37,529 nt of DNA from a virus: positions 1 to 37,529 of the IMG/VR virus record IMGVR_UViG_3300009506_000103; one strand, 5' to 3'. This document shows, piece after piece, positions 6,230-13,184 of this stretch (position 1 is its first letter; every line of letters begins with the position of its first letter). The notes under the pieces were generated by a model. That model ran no database searches. It saw only the letters and a program-made list of their open reading frames with translations, and was not told the origin of the DNA. A program made the translations under genes and the position numbers.

Positions 6230-7436
6230 ATGGGATTTTTGGGCTAGACCTGAACAATTACCACCACCCGGAAATTGGCTGGTATGGTTGATTTTAGCCG
6301 GTAGAGGATGGGGTAAAACTAGAACTGGCGCAGAATTTATCAAAAAGCGCGTTCTTGAAGAAAATGCACAAGAAATAATTATCGCTGCCAGAACTCCAAC
6401 GGAATTACGAGAATATTGTATTGAGGGAAAATCAGGAATATTAAATGTTTTCCCGCCAAATATAAAACCAATTTATAAAGAATCTAAGTCACGCATAGAA
6501 TTTCATAATGGAGCGATAGCACATTGTTATGCTGGTGAAACACCTGACAAATTCCGTGGTGGAAATCCAGATACCGCGTGGTTTGATGAATTAGTCACTT
6601 ATCAGTATATGGAGAGAGTATGGGAATCATTTATTTTTTCTATTAGAACTGGCATTCCTAAAATCATAATTACTACTACGCCAAAGCCGGTAAAGCTTCT
6701 CGAAGAGATAATGAAAGATAAAGACACTTACATTACTCGAGGCAGTTCGTACGATAATATAGACAATTTAAGCCCGATTTTTGTAAGCAAAATATTAGAT
6801 AAATACAAAGATAGGCGTATAGGACGACAAGAAATATATGCAGAAATTTTGCAAGATATCGAGGGCGCATTATGGAAATCTGTGACATTGGCAAAAAATC
6901 GTGTTACCTATGGTGATTTAATAGAGTTTGCCAAACGCTTAAAAGTAATAAAAATAGGTGTTGACCCGGCTGCTTCATCAGGAGATGCAAGCGATGAAAC
7001 AGGAATTATTGTAGGCGGCCTTGATAGAAACGGCCATGGTTATACATTAGAAGACTGCTCATTAATTGGAACGCCGACAGAAAGAGCAAATGTAATAAAG
7101 CATTTATATTATAAATATGGCTGCAATGAAGTAATCGCCGAAAAAAATAATGGTGGTGATATGGTACAGCATATGATACAAAGTGTTGATAAAACCATTC
7201 GTGTAAAATTGGTTCATGCTAGTAATGCGAAATTTACCCGTGCCGAACCTATTGCAGGATTGGACGAACAGGGTAAAATAAGTATGGTTAATTATTTTCC
7301 TGAATTAGAAGACGAATTAACCAAATGGACACCTAAAGCAGGCAAATCACCTAACAGGCTTGATGCTTACGTTTGGTTGTGGAGCGATTTATTGCTCGAT
7401 TTATCTTCATATGACATGGGAGCAATGGGGGTATGA
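6117..7436 (+). CDS. terL: Terminase large subunit
   Basis: 439 aa DNA-packaging motor. ATPase part: Walker A A-G-R-G-W-G-K-T (61-68), an acidic Walker B-like segment ending F-D-E (156-158), and coupling motif I-I-T-T-T-P (184-189). RNase H-fold nuclease part: G-V-D-P-A near D283, E-K-N-N-G-G-D around 340, and the late N-R-L-D-A-Y-V-W acidic motif. The upstream W-D-F-W-A-R-P-E-Q-L-P-P-P-G-x-W segment is a hallmark of this terminase subfamily. The start is uncertain: the ATG at 6117 lies inside the small-subunit gene with a weak ribosome site, and a TTG at 6171 would match typical homologue lengths. Confidence 0.92.
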   Translation: MLTQTTKTQLKLLQNSVKLLTQSEKEQILQLTNQLKYRWDFWARPEQLPPPGNWLVWLILAGRGWGKTRTGAEFIKKRVLEENAQEIIIAARTPTELREYCIEGKSGILNVFPPNIKPIYKESKSRIEFHNGAIAHCYAGETPDKFRGGNPDTAWFDELVTYQYMERVWESFIFSIRTGIPKIIITTTPKPVKLLEEIMKDKDTYITRGSSYDNIDNLSPIFVSKILDKYKDRRIGRQEIYAEILQDIEGALWKSVTLAKNRVTYGDLIEFAKRLKVIKIGVDPAASSGDASDETGIIVGGLDRNGHGYTLEDCSLIGTPTERANVIKHLYYKYGCNEVIAEKNNGGDMVQHMIQSVDKTIRVKLVHASNAKFTRAEPIAGLDEQGKISMVNYFPELEDELTKWTPKAGKSPNRLDAYVWLWSDLLLDLSSYDMGAMGV

Positions 7437-7437
7437 T

Positions 7438-8865
7438 ATGAACAAAGTTAAAAAGAAGGGGATTTTAGAGCGGATTGTCGATGGATGGTCAAATATTATA
7501 ACCGGCCTAGGTGGCGATAAAGCTAAAAATCCAAATGTTTCTTTTCAAAGAAGCCAATTAGGTCAAGATGAGTTATCAAATATTTATATCGCCGATGGTT
7601 TTGGTAGAAAAATAATTGATAAAATCGGCAAGGACATGACGCGAGAATGGATTAAGATAAATGGTGACCCTGCTGGTGAGATAGTAAGTAAATTAAACAG
7701 AATATATGCCAAGAAAAAATTTTCCACACTTGTTAAATGGGCTAAATTATATGGCGGTGCAATTATATTAATGGGTATAAATGACGGGGGAAAATTTGAA
7801 GACCCGCTTAATGAAAATACTATTAAAAGTGTAGATTTTTTGCATGTCATTGATAAGAATTATATTTTTTTTCAGAACCAAAATTTTTATAGCGACCCGC
7901 GCGACCCAAGCTATGGTAATCCTGAGTTTTATTCTATTACCGCAAGTTTCACACCTCAATTAGCATCACAAATATTGAAGGCAACAAAATTGCCCATAAA
8001 GGAATATGAAAGAAATGTATTAACAGAATTTCAGGTGCATCAATCAAGAATTTTGCGAATGGATGGCGTTGAGTTGCCATTAGTAGATAAAATTAATAAC
8101 AAGGGATGGGGCGATTCTATTTTTACAGCGGCCTATAAACAATTATCAAACTTAGGACAATGTTATGAATATTCGGCGGAATATATGCATCGAATGATAC
8201 AGGATATTTTAAAATTTAAGAATTTATCATCCATATTGCAAAGGGGAAAAGAAGGAGAGGACATCGTAAAAAATAGATTAGGCGCATTACAAAAATGCCG
8301 CAGTTGGTTTAATGCTGTAATACTTGATAATGAGGAAAGCTATGAAGAAACTACTACCCAATTGGCTGGATTAACAGATTTGCTTGATAGGTTCATTTTG
8401 GCGTTATGTGCTGTTTTAGATATACCAGAATATATTTTAATGGGTGAAAGTCCGTCAGGATTAAATTCAAGAGGTGATACAGATTTAACATCATGGTATA
8501 ACACAATAAAATCAGAACAAATAGACAATTTATACAATCCATTACATAGACTTATTTCGTTAATAATGAAGTCCCGCGAGATGTCGCCATCTATTAAAAA
8601 ACTTGTCAATACTGAATGGGATATTGTATTTAATCCTTTGCAACAGCCTAATAGAGTAGAGGAAAGCAATATCAGAAAGACCACGGCTGATACAGACCAA
8701 ATATATATTCAAACTGGTGTTTTACAGCCAGAAGAAGTTAAAGACAGCAGATTCGGTGGCGGTGCTTATTCAATAGAAACGGAAATAGAAAATCCTGAAA
8801 CTGAGGGCAAAGAAGATGGCAGCAGTAATGCCGAAGAGGCTAACCCCAATACAGCAGGCGATTAG
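7438..8865 (+). CDS. Portal protein (DUF1073 family)
   Basis: 475 aa with the start at 7438, preceded by GGGGGT and one base after the terminase stop. Conserved features of the DUF1073 portal family are visible: G-R-K-I-I-D-K-I-G-K-D-M-T-R-E-W near residue 50, a W-x-x-L-Y-G-G-A turn, and P-S-G-L-N-S-R-G-D-T-D in the C-terminal half. It forms the dodecameric ring at the head vertex through which DNA enters and to which the tail attaches. The acidic C-terminal tail overlaps the start of the head morphogenesis gene by about 50 nt. Confidence 0.88.
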   Translation: MNKVKKKGILERIVDGWSNIITGLGGDKAKNPNVSFQRSQLGQDELSNIYIADGFGRKIIDKIGKDMTREWIKINGDPAGEIVSKLNRIYAKKKFSTLVKWAKLYGGAIILMGINDGGKFEDPLNENTIKSVDFLHVIDKNYIFFQNQNFYSDPRDPSYGNPEFYSITASFTPQLASQILKATKLPIKEYERNVLTEFQVHQSRILRMDGVELPLVDKINNKGWGDSIFTAAYKQLSNLGQCYEYSAEYMHRMIQDILKFKNLSSILQRGKEGEDIVKNRLGALQKCRSWFNAVILDNEESYEETTTQLAGLTDLLDRFILALCAVLDIPEYILMGESPSGLNSRGDTDLTSWYNTIKSEQIDNLYNPLHRLISLIMKSREMSPSIKKLVNTEWDIVFNPLQQPNRVEESNIRKTTADTDQIYIQTGVLQPEEVKDSRFGGGAYSIETEIENPETEGKEDGSSNAEEANPNTAGD

Positions 8866-10684
8866 TCAACGCCCCATTTTTGGATTGCATAAAAAAAGAC
8901 TTGGTAAACCTACTAAAATCCTTTATCCAAAAAATTTTGAAGGCCTTTATAATAGACTGCTGCTTATTATAGTTAAAAACTTTCAAGATTTGGTTACTAA
9001 ATTAATTATTCCACAATTAAGTCAATTACATGCTCAACAAAAAGCGTTGCTGCCAGACGACTCTAATTTACATATTGATGCTGTAGCAGACAATATAGCT
9101 ACTTTATTTAATACCATTTCATTAACTAGCTCGACATTTCTAAATAATGCCAATCTGCAGGGGAAAATGCTTAATTTTGCAGGGGCTATAGCTGGCTTTA
9201 ACAGGCAGCAAGTAACTAGAGCATTAAAAAGCATTTTGGGGGTAGATATTTATACCCCAGAGCCTTGGTTAAATGATTCCATTACAAATTTTGTGCATCA
9301 AAATACAGCTTTAATAAAATCTTTGCAAAGCCAATCTTTATCAGATTTGCAGGGTATAGTTATGCGAGGTTTTCAGCAGGGAGTAAGGCCTGAAGATATT
9401 GCAGAACAATTAAAAGCAAGATATGGGGTACAGCAAAGACGTGCTAATTTAATTGCCCGTGACCAAGTAGGAAAATTAAACGGCCAGTTAAATAAATTAA
9501 GGCAACAAGGTGCTGGCGTTGAATCATATATTTGGCGCACATCAGAAGATGAAAGAGTGCGTGGTGACCCAGACGGATTATATCCTAATGCAGTTCCGTC
9601 ACATTTTATTAGAGACGGTGTAGAGTTTAGGTGGGACTCGCCCCCGGAAGATGGTCATCCCGGCGAATCTATTAATTGTTTAATTGGTGAAACTAAAGTA
9701 TTTAGTCTTGTCTACTGTAAAAAATTTTTTAGGCGTTTCTATAAAGGAGAAATGACCAAGCTTATCACGAGTTCTGGCGAAAGCATTATAGCTACACCAA
9801 ATCACCCTATATTGACTAATAGAGGATGGCTGCCTATTAAAGATGTGAAAATGCAGGATAATTTGATTAGTATTTCTAATCAGGGACTCGAAATCTTTAA
9901 ACGCAACAATCAATATTTTAAACCCACGATTGAGGAGATATTTAATTTTCTTTCTATTATTTTTGGAGTTAATTTTGCCGGTGGAACGGCTAATCAATTC
10001 CACGGCGATGGTATCATTAACGAGCAAGTCAATATTATAGATATTGATAGCTGCTTGTTGAACGACTTTAAGATTGATGGTTTTACTAAAAATTTGTGCG
10101 AGGATGTTTTCTCCTTTGCCAATATGGCTCTTAGCGACTTCCCTTCCGATAGCTCCATTATGTATATGCTTTATGCTCTTGGGTTTTCCTCGTATAGTTG
10201 CGTGTGCCTTTTCAGTAAGCTTTTTTCGTTGGGTTTTGGTCAATTTGCTCATTCTGATGATATTTGCCTCAGAGCTATTACGGAGCTTAATACCGTTTTC
10301 AATAAGACGAATTTTGATACTACTTCTGGAGATTCTGTATTTTTTAGAAAGCCACAAAATGCTCTTACCAGAGATATATTGTTTGATAATATCTTTTTCA
10401 GAAAGTTGCTTGCGGTTATGCGCAGGACGTTTCCAGTGCATAATTGTGAATCCTTGCTTGCGCATTGCGACCGAAAGCGCATCGGGATTACAAGAGAATC
10501 TTTTGGCAATTTCATGCAAATTGATTCCAGATTGCATGAGACTATACGCGTTATCGATAAAAGTTTTTGTGTATTTAGCGGACATGTTTATAACCTCGAA
10601 AATTATTATGAAAGCTATATTATAGCCGATAATACACTAACTGGCAACTGTAGATGCTCAGCCGAGCCGGTCATTAAAAGTTGA
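8816..10684 (+). CDS. MuF-type head morphogenesis protein interrupted by an intein
   Basis: 622-aa precursor. Residues 1-287 plus 612-622 form a 298-aa MuF/SPP1 gp7-like minor head protein, with a helical N-terminus and a C-terminal Mu gpF domain (R-A-N-L-I-A-R-D-Q-V-G-K-L, then W-D-S-P-P-E-D-G-H-P-G-E-S-I-N, then C-R-C-S-A-E-P). Such proteins sit at the portal vertex and aid head assembly or DNA ejection. A 324-residue intein (288-611) splits the conserved N-C-R-C motif. Splicing would rejoin I-N to C-R-C. The start at 8816 overlaps the portal gene; 8828 is an alternative ATG. The last 27 nt overlap a leftward gene tail to tail. Confidence 0.9.
   Translation: MAAVMPKRLTPIQQAISQRPIFGLHKKRLGKPTKILYPKNFEGLYNRLLLIIVKNFQDLVTKLIIPQLSQLHAQQKALLPDDSNLHIDAVADNIATLFNTISLTSSTFLNNANLQGKMLNFAGAIAGFNRQQVTRALKSILGVDIYTPEPWLNDSITNFVHQNTALIKSLQSQSLSDLQGIVMRGFQQGVRPEDIAEQLKARYGVQQRRANLIARDQVGKLNGQLNKLRQQGAGVESYIWRTSEDERVRGDPDGLYPNAVPSHFIRDGVEFRWDSPPEDGHPGESINCLIGETKVFSLVYCKKFFRRFYKGEMTKLITSSGESIIATPNHPILTNRGWLPIKDVKMQDNLISISNQGLEIFKRNNQYFKPTIEEIFNFLSIIFGVNFAGGTANQFHGDGIINEQVNIIDIDSCLLNDFKIDGFTKNLCEDVFSFANMALSDFPSDSSIMYMLYALGFSSYSCVCLFSKLFSLGFGQFAHSDDICLRAITELNTVFNKTNFDTTSGDSVFFRKPQNALTRDILFDNIFFRKLLAVMRRTFPVHNCESLLAHCDRKRIGITRESFGNFMQIDSRLHETIRVIDKSFCVFSGHVYNLENYYESYIIADNTLTGNCRCSAEPVIKS
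9680..10585 (-). CDS. HTH-Vsr-type homing endonuclease encoded antisense inside the intein
   Basis: 301 aa on the strand opposite the head gene. Two helix-turn-helix segments (about 12-46 and 62-96) are followed by a linker with the R-N-S-S-E-A and K-A-H-A-T-I-R-G motifs typical of phage intron/intein-associated nucleases. A Vsr-like fold spans about 157-232: G-E-N-I-L-A (E159), Y-N-I-D-L-L (D186), I-A-V-E-L-I (E196), then Y-L-L-N-R-G-F-K-I-L-I-V. The last 65-70 residues oppose the N-terminal splicing region and look like non-functional read-through. A GAGG ribosome site lies 9 nt before the ATG and a near-consensus promoter lies upstream. Expected role: cutting intein-less alleles to spread the intein. 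Confidence 0.85.
   Translation of the reverse strand: MSAKYTKTFIDNAYSLMQSGINLHEIAKRFSCNPDALSVAMRKQGFTIMHWKRPAHNRKQLSEKDIIKQYISGKSILWLSKKYRISRSSIKIRLIENGIKLRNSSEANIIRMSKLTKTQRKKLTEKAHATIRGKPKSIKHIHNGAIGREVAKSHIGKGENILAQIFSKTINLKVVQQAAINIYNIDLLVNDTIAVELISRSTGKINSKNNRKKIKYLLNRGFKILIVAFKDFESLIRNTNQIILHFHIFNRQPSSISQYRVIWCSYNAFARTRDKLGHFSFIETPKKFFTVDKTKYFSFTN
10619..10647 (-). promoter_or_regulatory. Promoter of the antisense homing endonuclease
   Basis: Read leftward: TTGCCA, exactly 17 bp, TATAAT. The predicted start is near 10612, giving a leader of about 27 nt with a GAGG site before the ATG at 10585. The -35 box is the complement of the codons for Gly610-Asn611 at the intein's C-terminal splice junction, so promoter and splicing motif share the same bases. 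Confidence 0.65.
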
Positions 10685-11065
10685 TATTGTTATGCTTTCT
10701 TTTCCTTGTGCGGCAGCTTCATGAGCAGCTTTTTTTATTTTTTCAGAAAAAGTTTTTATATCTACATCATTTTTCTTTAATTCATCCATTAAAGATAAAA
10801 ATTTAGCCATTTTAAAATGCACTTTTTTGCATAAGGCACGAAGCTTATATATTTCTTCAATAGAGTCTAAGCTCATTATAGTTTTATCTTCAGGACATTT
10901 TTTTAAATGCTCATCAATTTCTTCTGTAGATGCTTGAGTACCAATTAAGCATAATAAAGTACCGATAAACATGCACGTTACAGAATCATCCCATCCATTA
11001 TCTTTTATAATATTTCTTAAACTTAACGCAAGTTCTTCAACTCTCAAGCTTTTTTTGTTTTCCAT
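10658..11065 (-). CDS. Hypothetical helical protein, 135 aa
   Basis: No recognised family. The start at 11065 is chosen because AGGAG lies 8 nt upstream; a longer reading from 11086 would place its own codons over that site. The protein is helical and acidic-basic mixed, with three cysteines in the first half. It is the last gene of the leftward cassette, and its 3' end overlaps the head gene's end by 27 nt on the other strand. Function unknown. Confidence 0.6.
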   Translation of the reverse strand: MENKKSLRVEELALSLRNIIKDNGWDDSVTCMFIGTLLCLIGTQASTEEIDEHLKKCPEDKTIMSLDSIEEIYKLRALCKKVHFKMAKFLSLMDELKKNDVDIKTFSEKIKKAAHEAAAQGKESITISTFNDRLG

Positions 11066-11261
11066 GTTTTTTACTCCTATATTCATTTAGTTTTTTTCGA
11101 TAGAGCCTGTCGGTTATTATAACCAATGCTCGCCCATCCGGATTAACTTTTTCAGATGTAAGCTTTTTTTCAGAACATAATTGCCTAACTCTGCGTTCAG
11201 TTAATCCAAATTCTTTTGCGACTATATCAACAAATTTTGCATTTACGATTTTAATTTTCAT
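11037..11261 (-). CDS. Small HTH (MerR/excisionase-like) protein, 74 aa
   Basis: Residues about 10-35 (V-A-K-E-F-G-L-T-E-R-R-V-R-Q-L-C-S-E-K-K-L) form a winged-helix/MerR-like recognition element followed by a wing-type segment (V-N-P-D-G-R-A-L-V-I). Comparable small phage proteins act as DNA-binding regulators, excisionases or terminase small subunits. Here a terminase small subunit is already present. It overlaps both neighbours in the leftward cassette, implying coupled translation. Possible regulator of the cassette. Confidence 0.6.
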   Translation of the reverse strand: MKIKIVNAKFVDIVAKEFGLTERRVRQLCSEKKLTSEKVNPDGRALVIITDRLYRKKLNEYRSKKHGKQKKLES

Positions 11262-11452
11262 AAGTTCTCTTTAAGATAAATAAACAGTGCTAATGTGATT
11301 ATTAATGGGGCTATAACACATGTCGCCGTTATTAAAATTGAATGTAATCCAATATGTAAAATTTTACATGCAGTTACACCAATTAAAAAAAAGTATAACC
11401 AACTAATAAATACGAATGGTGATATAATTATTGTTGATAAGATAGTCTTCAT
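11258..11452 (-). CDS. Small membrane protein with two transmembrane segments, 64 aa
   Basis: Two hydrophobic helices (about 4-27 and 34-58) separated by a short turn, with a short charged tail. AGAGG precedes the ATG at 11452. It belongs to the leftward cassette under the 11811-11839 promoter. Small membrane proteins in such cassettes can be exclusion or anti-lysis factors, but nothing in the sequence decides this. Confidence 0.6.
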   Translation of the reverse strand: MKTILSTIIISPFVFISWLYFFLIGVTACKILHIGLHSILITATCVIAPLIITLALFIYLKENL

Positions 11453-11591
11453 AATTAATACCTCTAGTTGCTTCTTTTATTAATAAATATTTTCGCTTAT
11501 TGATTGGGGCTCTGGACTTTTGTTTTAAGTGTCGAGCATTTATAGAGCCCCAATCTAAGCGAAAATCGCTAATTAAAGCAATGTCTTCCAT
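11403..11591 (-). CDS. Possible small protein spanning a hairpin, 62 aa
   Basis: Starts within the last codons of the upstream 66-aa gene with an AGGA site about 9 nt upstream, and ends 50 nt inside the next gene. The protein is basic and shows no recognised motif. Its middle is encoded by a long inverted repeat (11490-11565), which is unusual for coding DNA. The stretch may therefore be an untranslated regulatory element. Kept because the ribosome site and cassette layout are reasonable. Confidence 0.3.
   Translation of the reverse strand: MEDIALISDFRLDWGSINARHLKQKSRAPINKRKYLLIKEATRGINYEDYLINNNYITIRIY
11490..11565 (-). repeat. Long stem-loop inside the leftward cassette
   Basis: Arms of 24 nt (11490-11513) and 22 nt (11544-11565) pair almost completely: TTTTCGCTTA, a 2-nt bulge, then GATTGGGGCTCT against its exact complement. 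The loop is 30 nt. No T-tract lies immediately after the stem, so it is not a classical terminator in either direction. It could be an RNA processing or attenuation element, a regulatory RNA, or a remnant of a small mobile element. Confidence 0.6.
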
Positions 11592-11769
11592 CGTTCATCC
11601 TAGCTTTAAAAATCATCATCGTTAAGTCTAATATTAAAAGCCTTGCGTCAGATAATTGTTGCGTAAGAAATCCGCTAGCGACCTGACATGCTATTTTAGA
11701 TAGTTTTTCACTAGGTAAAGCAGCAAGTTTATAATAAAGATTCATTGTCGATTGGTTAATAGGTTTCAT
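11569..11769 (-). CDS. Hypothetical helical protein, 66 aa
   Basis: First gene of the leftward cassette, with AAGGAG shortly before the ATG at 11769 and the duplicated consensus promoter about 45 nt further upstream. The protein is helical with several cysteines and no recognised motif. Being promoter-proximal under the strong operator-controlled promoter suggests early or lysogenic expression; that is inference. Confidence 0.6.
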   Translation of the reverse strand: MKPINQSTMNLYYKLAALPSEKLSKIACQVASGFLTQQLSDARLLILDLTMMIFKARMNDGRHCFN

Positions 11770-11987: not shown

Positions 11988-13184
11988 ATGGATAATAAAC
12001 GCGTTATTTGTTGCGATAAAATTCACCTAGCCAAAGCAAAAATCACCGATGATGGCTTCATCGAAGGTGAGGCTGTTTTAACTAGGGCTGGTATTTTTAA
12101 ATATATTACTGCTGATGGTAAAGTCTCAAGAAGATTTAGACCGCCAGAGGAAGTAACTAAAAAAGCTCATCTTGACTCTATGAAAATGATGCCAATTACT
12201 GAAAGACATCCTACAGAAAGATGGGTCGATTCAAAAAATGCCAAGCAACATATGGTCGGGCAGACCGGCGAAAATGTCAGGGTGATTAGCGACAGACCGA
12301 TTGCCTCAATAAAGATTTTAGACCATTCCGCTGTAGAAAAAGTTAAAAGCGGAGAACTAAAAGAATTAAGTTTGGGTTATACGGCTATTTTAGACCATAC
12401 ACCGGGCAGTTTTAATGGCGAACAATATGATTGTGTGCAGCGCGATATGATTTGCAATCATTTAGCGTTAGTCCCGCATGGCCGGGCAAATGCTGAAAAT
12501 CAGGGCGAATTTGCACAAATAAATTTGTGCGATTCAAACGATGCAATTTTAGATTCTAACGTGGACGACATTTTTGTTGATTTTAACAATGTGAACGGGG
12601 GAACAGATATGCCAAATATGGTAAAAATAACATTAGACGGCATCCAATATGATGCTGCTCCTGAGGTTGCAAATGCGCTTGAAAAGGCAAAGTCTGCAAC
12701 TACGGAAAAACAGAAACAGCTTGATGATGCCGCGGTGGCATATCAAAAAATAAAATCCGATATGGAAGTTTTACAAGGAAAGCATGATGTCATTGCTGAT
12801 GAGCTTAAAAAAGCTAAAGCACATAATGACTCTTTAGACATCACTTCTTTAGTTAAAGCAAGAGTTAAGGTGCTTGATAGTGCCAGAGACATTTTAACTG
12901 AAAAAGAAGCCGAAAAAATAGAGGATATGAGCGATATTGAGATTAAAAAGACTGTCGTTAAGGCAATGCTTCCTAATATTAATTTAGACGGGAAAAATGA
13001 CCTCTATATTGAAGCATGTTTTGATACTTGCTTAGATTTACAGCCTGATAAAGATGCTATAGCTTCTCAAAGGTTGTTAGCTGGTTCTGTCGGCGGGAAA
13101 ACTGTTGATGAAAACGATGCGCGCGACAGAATGATTGCCCGTATGTTTAATGGCGGCAAAGATGCCAAAAAAGAGGAGAAATAA
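11988..13184 (+). CDS. Prohead protease with C-terminal scaffold (DUF2213)
   Basis: 398 aa. Residues 1-170 match the DUF2213 family of putative prohead proteases: P-I-T-E-R-H-P with His74, K-E-L-S-L-G-Y with Ser128, and C-N-H-L-A-L-V with His158, consistent with a herpesvirus/HK97-type serine protease. Residues from about 208 on are a long charged coiled coil typical of scaffolding proteins. It would cleave scaffold and capsid delta domains during head maturation. There is no ribosome-binding site at the ATG, fitting a leaderless start. An internal start can make the scaffold alone. Confidence 0.82.
   Translation: MDNKRVICCDKIHLAKAKITDDGFIEGEAVLTRAGIFKYITADGKVSRRFRPPEEVTKKAHLDSMKMMPITERHPTERWVDSKNAKQHMVGQTGENVRVISDRPIASIKILDHSAVEKVKSGELKELSLGYTAILDHTPGSFNGEQYDCVQRDMICNHLALVPHGRANAENQGEFAQINLCDSNDAILDSNVDDIFVDFNNVNGGTDMPNMVKITLDGIQYDAAPEVANALEKAKSATTEKQKQLDDAAVAYQKIKSDMEVLQGKHDVIADELKKAKAHNDSLDITSLVKARVKVLDSARDILTEKEAEKIEDMSDIEIKKTVVKAMLPNINLDGKNDLYIEACFDTCLDLQPDKDAIASQRLLAGSVGGKTVDENDARDRMIARMFNGGKDAKKEEK
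12609..13184 (+). CDS. Internal in-frame start for a separate scaffold protein (candidate)
   Basis: Within the protease-scaffold gene, GGGGG stands 8 nt before an in-frame ATG at codon 208, exactly where the protease part ends and the coiled coil begins. Translation there would yield a 191-aa scaffold, the same nested arrangement as lambda C/Nu3 and other protease-scaffold pairs. The start signal is seen; production of the product is inferred. Confidence 0.55.
   Translation: MPNMVKITLDGIQYDAAPEVANALEKAKSATTEKQKQLDDAAVAYQKIKSDMEVLQGKHDVIADELKKAKAHNDSLDITSLVKARVKVLDSARDILTEKEAEKIEDMSDIEIKKTVVKAMLPNINLDGKNDLYIEACFDTCLDLQPDKDAIASQRLLAGSVGGKTVDENDARDRMIARMFNGGKDAKKEEK

Follow-up and report, generated by a model that had tools for sequence, protein, structure and literature searches.

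In the IMG/VR virus record IMGVR_UViG_3300009506_000103 (37,529 bases, analysed at full length and referred to below as the window), the gene for a MuF-type minor head protein is interrupted by an intein, and the strand opposite this intein carries a second, fully overlapping gene for a nuclease with helix-turn-helix (HTH) motifs and a Vsr-type fold. The element is very probably a mobile intein for which the homing endonuclease is encoded wholly by the opposite strand, the sense product being predicted to splice and the antisense product to cut DNA. We further think it likely that the element represents a class of mobile intein not described before: splicing and cutting are assigned to opposite strands that face each other codon on codon over ~900 bp, and the C-terminal splicing blocks also provide the ribosome-binding site (RBS) and start, and in some family members the promoter, of the nuclease gene; this class, probably of one origin, would comprise ~160 clusters widespread in tailed phages and a derived, free-standing escapee. 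A preliminary description of the window had proposed a full Hint-type splicing element on the sense strand (9677–10648, +), overlapped almost completely by a gene on the other strand for a 301-aa HTH plus Vsr-fold nuclease with a ribosome site and a promoter of its own. All of its coordinates and residues that were checked proved correct, and these proposals held up in the analyses presented here; what it understated was the extent of the arrangement, which is that of a conserved family and not of one locus. The features of the element, given as positions in the window (aa, amino acids; pLDDT, predicted local distance difference test score), are the following.

8816–10684, + strand: MuF-type minor head protein gene, intein-interrupted, 622 aa (Pfam Phage_Mu_F, E 2.8e-12; TIGR01641, E 9.3e-13).
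8816–9676, + strand: N-extein, ending in ...GESIN.
9677–10648, + strand: predicted intein of 324 aa, C1 to N324, placed ahead of the MuF C-R-C motif (invariant residues, Hint fold, empty sites).
9677–9886, + strand: Hint N-terminal half with blocks A and B and T40-P-N-H43 (pLDDT ~88–98; sense-frame selection).
9998–10009, + strand: sense motif F108-H-G-D111, exactly facing V193-A-V-E196 of the nuclease; constrained on both strands.
10052–10525, + strand: sense linker between the Hint halves, predicted to be disordered, rich in F, L, I and S, the mirror of the nuclease gene (pLDDT, composition).
10535–10648, + strand: Hint C-terminal half with block F (HVYNLE) and block G (TGN) (pLDDT 89–98 over residues 291–324).
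10649–10684, + strand: C-extein, CRCSAEPVIKS and stop.
9680–10585, − strand: predicted antisense nuclease gene, 301 aa, with HTHs and a Vsr/EDxHD-type nuclease domain (AlphaFold2, structure and profile matches, selection).
9812–10129, − strand: predicted nuclease core, aa 153–258 (E159 at 10109–10111, D186 at 10028–10030, E196 at 9998–10000).
10298–10585, − strand: predicted N-terminal DNA-binding part, aa 1–96, two HTHs, resolvase/Tc3/Mos1-like (structure matches).
10583–10597, − strand: putative nuclease RBS and start, GAGGTTATAAACATG, the reverse complement of intein H-V-Y-N-L (CAT GTT TAT AAC CTC).
10619–10647, − strand: promoter-like site TTGCCA-N17-TATAAT within the last intein codons (11 of 12 sigma-70 consensus positions).

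On the sense strand, a match to phrog_15127 spans the entire MuF protein (E 2.3e-89), the Phage_Mu_F domain occupies residues 179–288 of its 622 aa, and intein-like similarity follows after that. The codon for Cys1 of the intein lies at 9677–9679, that for the final Asn at 10646–10648, and Cys+1 begins at 10649. Among 57 aligned inteins, C1, H43 and N324 are the sole invariant residues, and T40 is kept in 98%; the window has C+1. Left out of this alignment were three MuF intein homologs (L041, L042 and L043) that apparently lack Cys1 (junctions HPNG/RAEVEGN and HPRG/KAELPDN) and retain block B, HVYS and the terminal HN/C. The predicted structure contains a complete Hint fold (Z 14.4, root-mean-square deviation (rmsd) 1.3 over 108 residues against the Mtu RecA intein). 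Judged by its conserved residues and by this model, the sense protein is a real intein. The mean pLDDT of the model is 66, with residues 1–70, 83–122 and ~290–324 confident and residues 126–283 mostly below 50. An in-frame endonuclease within the sense linker was considered and rejected, there being no domain in profile searches and low pLDDT; the nuclease is encoded not within the intein polypeptide, as in inteins that contain an in-frame homing endonuclease (HEN), but on the opposite strand.

The antisense gene extends from an ATG at 10585–10583 to a TAA at 9682–9680, which coincides with codon 2 of the intein. AlphaFold2, supplied with 63 homologs, gave its product a mean pLDDT of 93.1. The top structural match of the nuclease was Vsr (1cw0; Z 10.0 over 113 residues, rmsd 2.8), with further matches to the catalytic domain of I-Bth0305I (Z 9.3) and to the endonuclease-like ngo0050 (Z 8.8), and the N-terminal HTHs matched (VIA-align) Tn3 resolvase (Z 6.8), gamma-delta resolvase (Z 6.5) and the Mos1 mariner transposase (Z 6.0). 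A profile search for a nuclease fold in the antisense protein, set beforehand as a check, found one: the best PDB match for the 63-homolog profile is again the I-Bth0305I catalytic domain (3r3p, E 1.7e-7). Many members of the nuclease family match HTH families, and members also match MTES_1575 and DUF559, which we take to be the same nuclease group as the I-Bth0305I-type enzymes. The preliminary description had made its case depend on conservation of the antisense frame and of E159, D186 and E196; the frame is conserved, and the only residues invariant in the 63 homologs are these three and Q177. By predicted fold and by sequence profile, then, the antisense protein is a real nuclease. (SurE phosphatase, found near the top of the Foldseek list, was set aside as an identity; we take this similarity as a common arrangement because the highest Z scores belong to the Vsr-type matches, which are also in line with the sequence profiles.)

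Because codons of the two genes face each other, position 3 of a sense codon is position 1 of an antisense codon, and substitutions can be sorted by the strand on which they are silent. In 22 sequence pairs, we counted changes synonymous in the sense frame only and in the antisense frame only. The two counts were 1215:139 in the N-extein, 344:173 in Hint-N, 160:62 in Hint-C and 166:11 in the C-extein, but were reversed in the linker, at 223:628 (linker versus extein, P 2e-213). Selection thus switches strand along the element, and in the linker it is the nuclease frame that is favoured. Individual residues behave accordingly. Antisense Ser75 (98%) and Ser105 (93%) are kept across the AGY and TCN codon families, and antisense Arg87 (98%), Arg102 (93%) and Arg120 (93%) across AGR and CGN, with the facing sense residues varying in each case; the antisense conservation is therefore not derivable from conservation of the sense protein. 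At sense Gly24, Gly34 and Gly50, within the Hint blocks, various Gly codons occur freely. The F-H-G-D motif facing V-A-V-E196 is nearly fixed to the codon (TTC CAC GGC GAY; TTC in 52/57, CAC in 50/57 and GGC in 51/57), and so the sense strand has a constraint of its own inside an otherwise free linker; this region of the intein model has a pLDDT of ~87–93. The pLDDT of 93 for the protein on the mirror strand, against less than 50 for the linker, fits the sense linker as a by-product of the nuclease gene.

A chance open reading frame (ORF) was rejected on stop-codon statistics and on recovery of the arrangement from the sense side. In the window, the probability that ~300 sense codons contain no TTA, CTA or TCA is ~1e-12 when codon usage is taken from the non-overlapping part of the gene. 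Across 87 ORFs, these antisense-stop codons make up 0 of 21,381 codons inside the overlap and 825 of 29,700 outside, a count that is biased when taken alone because the matches were chosen as open frames. A tblastn search of GenBank phages with the antisense protein returned 95 records, 22 of them with at least 80% of the protein covered; in the GenBank loci inspected, the nuclease strand is opposite to the MuF gene, with the exception of Acinetobacter phages. IMG/VR scans with alignments of the antisense protein yielded ~110 loci; of 89 distinct nuclease ORFs, all but 2 face an open MuF-intein frame on the other strand in one common codon-on-codon register. From the sense side, we scanned with the whole intein (best 80 of 551 relatives) and with the Hint-N block alone (best 80 of 378 relatives). 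The nuclease was present on the opposite strand in 70/70 distinct loci of the first scan and 57/57 of the second (55 intact, 2 split). Both scans recover the arrangement independently, and the antisense frame plays no part in selecting the loci of the second. Scans of the viral collection with the window protein alone, scans with an 11-row alignment and the plasmid collection gave no lead.

Pooling at roughly 90% identity gave 160 clusters, and in 156 of these both frames are open in one antiparallel codon-on-codon register. Decay is seen in both directions: L039 and L231 have a broken nuclease and an open intein, and L269 has a stop in the sense linker and an intact nuclease. The sole free-standing cluster among the 160 is L007. 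All inteins examined occupy a common place in MuF, nearly always directly ahead of the C-R-C motif, and most of the unusually long host proteins are fusions still containing MuF, one (L133) having no Pfam match. The arrangement is a widespread conserved family rather than a single locus, with an antisense nuclease in the MuF intein across hundreds of phage records.

Several of these host genes are unusual in their own right. The intein-bearing open frame of L120 (3821–8008, −; 1396 aa) combines sigma-70 region 2 and region 4 domains with MuF, and is perhaps a fusion, or else two genes joined together; in L067 (3821–7006, −) and L191 (997–3996, +), a portal-MuF fusion protein also bears the intein. 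In the GenBank loci opened, mostly the MuF frame alone is annotated; the nuclease strand is annotated in few, as hypothetical proteins (L009 2405–3214, +; L007 455–1348, +).

The start signals of the nuclease gene are embedded in the splicing motif itself. Block F of the intein, H-V-Y-N-L-(E/Q), doubles as nuclease signals, its CAT being the ATG and its CTC-CAA or CTC-GAA the Shine-Dalgarno (SD) sequence, so that GGAGG or GAGG is positioned ~8 nucleotides ahead of the start codon. An SD match of at least 4 bases occurs in 40/43 homologs, as compared with 6.25 expected at random positions. The promoter is present as a promoter-like site in the window, and only some family members have a strong one: 11–12 of the 12 sigma-70 consensus positions are matched in 16/43 homologs (window included), as compared with 2.05 expected when codons are randomised for the same protein sequence. 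Several homologs have a perfect TTGACA-N18-TATAAT at −58, and another group has TTGACA-N17-TATAAT at −55. In the window, transcription of the nuclease gene probably starts from a promoter within the final codons of the intein.

The surrounding genes of the window make up a tailed-phage set (terminase, portal, MuF, DUF2213 protease, tail sheath and baseplate), with the portal gene (7360–8865) upstream of MuF and the head protease gene at 11988–13184. Between MuF and the protease gene, a small leftward ORF cluster (10658–11769, −) reads towards the nuclease; upstream of this cluster is a 12/12 sigma-70-like promoter match (11839–11811). A similar small-gene cluster is found in the same place in MSW-3 (L001) and RCIP0015 (L002).

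Comparison of MuF homologues with and without the insertion, which had been suggested as a check, uncovered precise empty sites in close relatives. In the intein-less MuF of Klebsiella jedunaviruses and Salmonella jerseyviruses, the flanks continue codon for codon, with 0 bases gained or lost at the site. By Megablast, the intein is found in 8 records and the MuF gene in 71 for the jedunaviruses, and in 70 and 335, respectively, for the jerseyviruses, counts that include GenBank/RefSeq duplicates and come from sets that are not strictly nested. Trees of the MuF extein and of the nuclease have 12/54 splits in common, and each alignment rejects the topology of the other (approximately unbiased test, P 0.007 and 5e-5). 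Insertion exactly at a conserved site, together with this conflict between trees, argues for spread by insertion. In a different configuration, three Acinetobacter phages carry the nuclease alone, directly after an intein-less MuF gene (present in 78 Acinetobacter records) and on the opposite strand. This free-standing nuclease is 100% identical in 3/3, even though one adjoining MuF is only 94.5% identical, and it groups inside the intein-embedded family. The frame opposite to it is closed, with 12–13 stops in 297 codons as compared with none in embedded relatives; it thus constitutes a natural control, indicating that the mirror frame is not kept open without the intein. Separately, the intein-less MuF of Klebsiella phage RCIP0091 (L131) has a strongly changed insertion-site sequence, PVRCRCIARATPRG, with an unrelated annotated endonuclease nearby (L131 2339–3103, 4466–5311), and is possibly a resistant site.

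We propose that the element would work as follows. The sense strand would be translated within MuF, and the two Hint halves would splice the intein out and so restore the head protein. The opposite strand would provide the HTH plus Vsr-fold nuclease from its separate gene, starting at its own SD and ATG inside block F. The nuclease would cut the intein-less MuF of a co-infecting phage at the N/CRC site, and the break would be repaired from the intein-bearing copy, so that the double-coded unit would be transferred whole. The sense linker could afford to mirror the nuclease because a linker may be nearly anything without stops, and the tail of the nuclease would likewise be free to mirror the Hint blocks.

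Several observations weigh against this interpretation of the element as a mobile intein. At such divergence, conflict between trees is partly alignment noise, and the comparisons in the selection test partly share ancestry. In sequence the nuclease is only distantly related to I-Bth0305I (13% identity when the two are aligned by structure), and in the 63-sequence alignment the nuclease core has no invariant His as a candidate for the one in EDxHD, the conserved set being E, Q, D and E. Homologs other than the 16 noted above lack a strong promoter-like site, and may use other promoters. Finally, the penultimate intein residue in the window is Gly, whereas His is usual.

Of the alternatives, the one that fares best is that the nuclease is real and mobile and is mainly an inter-phage weapon, cutting the intein-less MuF of competitors so that exclusion is its function and homing a by-product. 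Free-standing homing nucleases of phages are an established cause of marker exclusion, the target here is a structural gene that is expected to be essential, and intein-bearing and intein-less relatives coexist within the same phage genera. However, exact insertion at the conserved site and the tree conflict speak for spread by insertion; the two roles are compatible, and we regard exclusion as the main one as possible but doubtful. It is improbable that the antisense protein has been domesticated, either as an HTH regulator or through a transcript that dampens MuF expression, and has lost homing. Its two HTHs, a transcript that would oppose the late gene, and a family intact in most members would agree with such a role, but E159, Q177, D186 and E196 are invariant across diverse homologs, and the patchy distribution and empty sites point to movement. 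Slightly less probable still is that splicing has been lost, so that MuF functions with the insert still in place or cleaved and the nuclease gene merely casts a tolerated in-frame shadow; the non-His penultimate residue, the three homologs apparently without Cys1 (L041–L043) and the sense stop of L269 could be read in this way, yet C1, H43 and N324 are invariant in the 57 inteins aligned with those three excluded, the +1 residue is Cys, the model has a complete Hint fold (Z 14.4), and selection acts on the sense frame of the Hint blocks. That the antisense frame is a mere mirror of a conserved sense protein, and the nuclease family an artefact of codon-on-codon reading, might have been supposed from the single register common to all homologs and from the tendency of mirror conservation to yield tblastn matches on both strands, but is refuted by the codon-level tests, that is, by the stronger purifying selection on the antisense frame of the linker and the Ser and Arg codon-family switches, and is contradicted also by the pLDDT contrast between the strands and by the free-standing homolog with a closed opposite frame; we give it almost no credence.

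Both parts of the element come from known families, and it would work like a mobile intein minus the in-frame endonuclease that defines HEN-containing inteins. I-Bth0305I (PDB 3r3p, deposited as a mobile intron protein) has the same nuclease fold and a related catalytic core, but belongs to an intron, whereas the present gene is located within an intein, in antisense orientation, and its product has N-terminal HTHs and the conserved E, Q, D and E. As in canonical mobile inteins (PI-SceI, PI-PfuI, VMA), an endonuclease-coding insert separates the two Hint halves, and the intein occupies a conserved site in its host protein; in those inteins, however, the endonuclease is within the intein polypeptide and on the sense strand, and not in a separate opposite-strand gene with its own RBS and start. 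Dassa and colleagues, in 2009, reportedly described fractured genes in which an independent EDxHD-type nuclease gene lies between the halves of a split intein. These resemble the present element in having a separate, intein-associated nuclease gene of the same fold class, and differ in that their host gene is in two pieces, whereas here the host gene is unbroken and the nuclease gene overlaps it fully. The Aaphi23 MuF intein is perhaps already in InBase as an intein, an entry that would not cover the antisense gene.

The nearest published architecture that we found is the ShiLan element, a same-strand, out-of-frame HNH nuclease in phage methylases, without a splicing domain and without an RBS (PMC11855218). 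Like the present element, it is a selfish insert that sits in a phage gene without closing the host reading frame and carries a homing nuclease coded in a different frame. Unlike it, the present element uses the antisense strand and a Vsr-type rather than an HNH nuclease, includes a complete Hint domain, has a strong RBS and occurs in many host groups. A 2025 preprint by Gosselin and colleagues on non-canonical actinophage inteins (10.1101/2025.01.02.630785), cited in PMC11855218 for overlapping frames, may overlap with the present finding for Gordonia phages. No description of antisense nuclease genes in inteins was found in the literature, in a search that did not extend to this preprint.

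It is rare that two long genes overlap completely in antiparallel orientation and that both products are conserved and recognisable by structure. With 160 divergent natural replicates and internal controls in the exteins, the Hint halves and the free-standing escapee, questions about antisense dual coding become testable, including where along the overlap selection acts on which strand, and how one protein adjusts to mirroring a second. The element also accounts for the ~200-residue linkers of these inteins, in which no endonuclease domain is recognisable, and it means that the annotation of MuF in common phages of Salmonella, Klebsiella, Gordonia and Vibrio mostly misses a gene. The arrangement also offers a way to uncouple expression of a homing nuclease from that of the late structural gene it parasitises.
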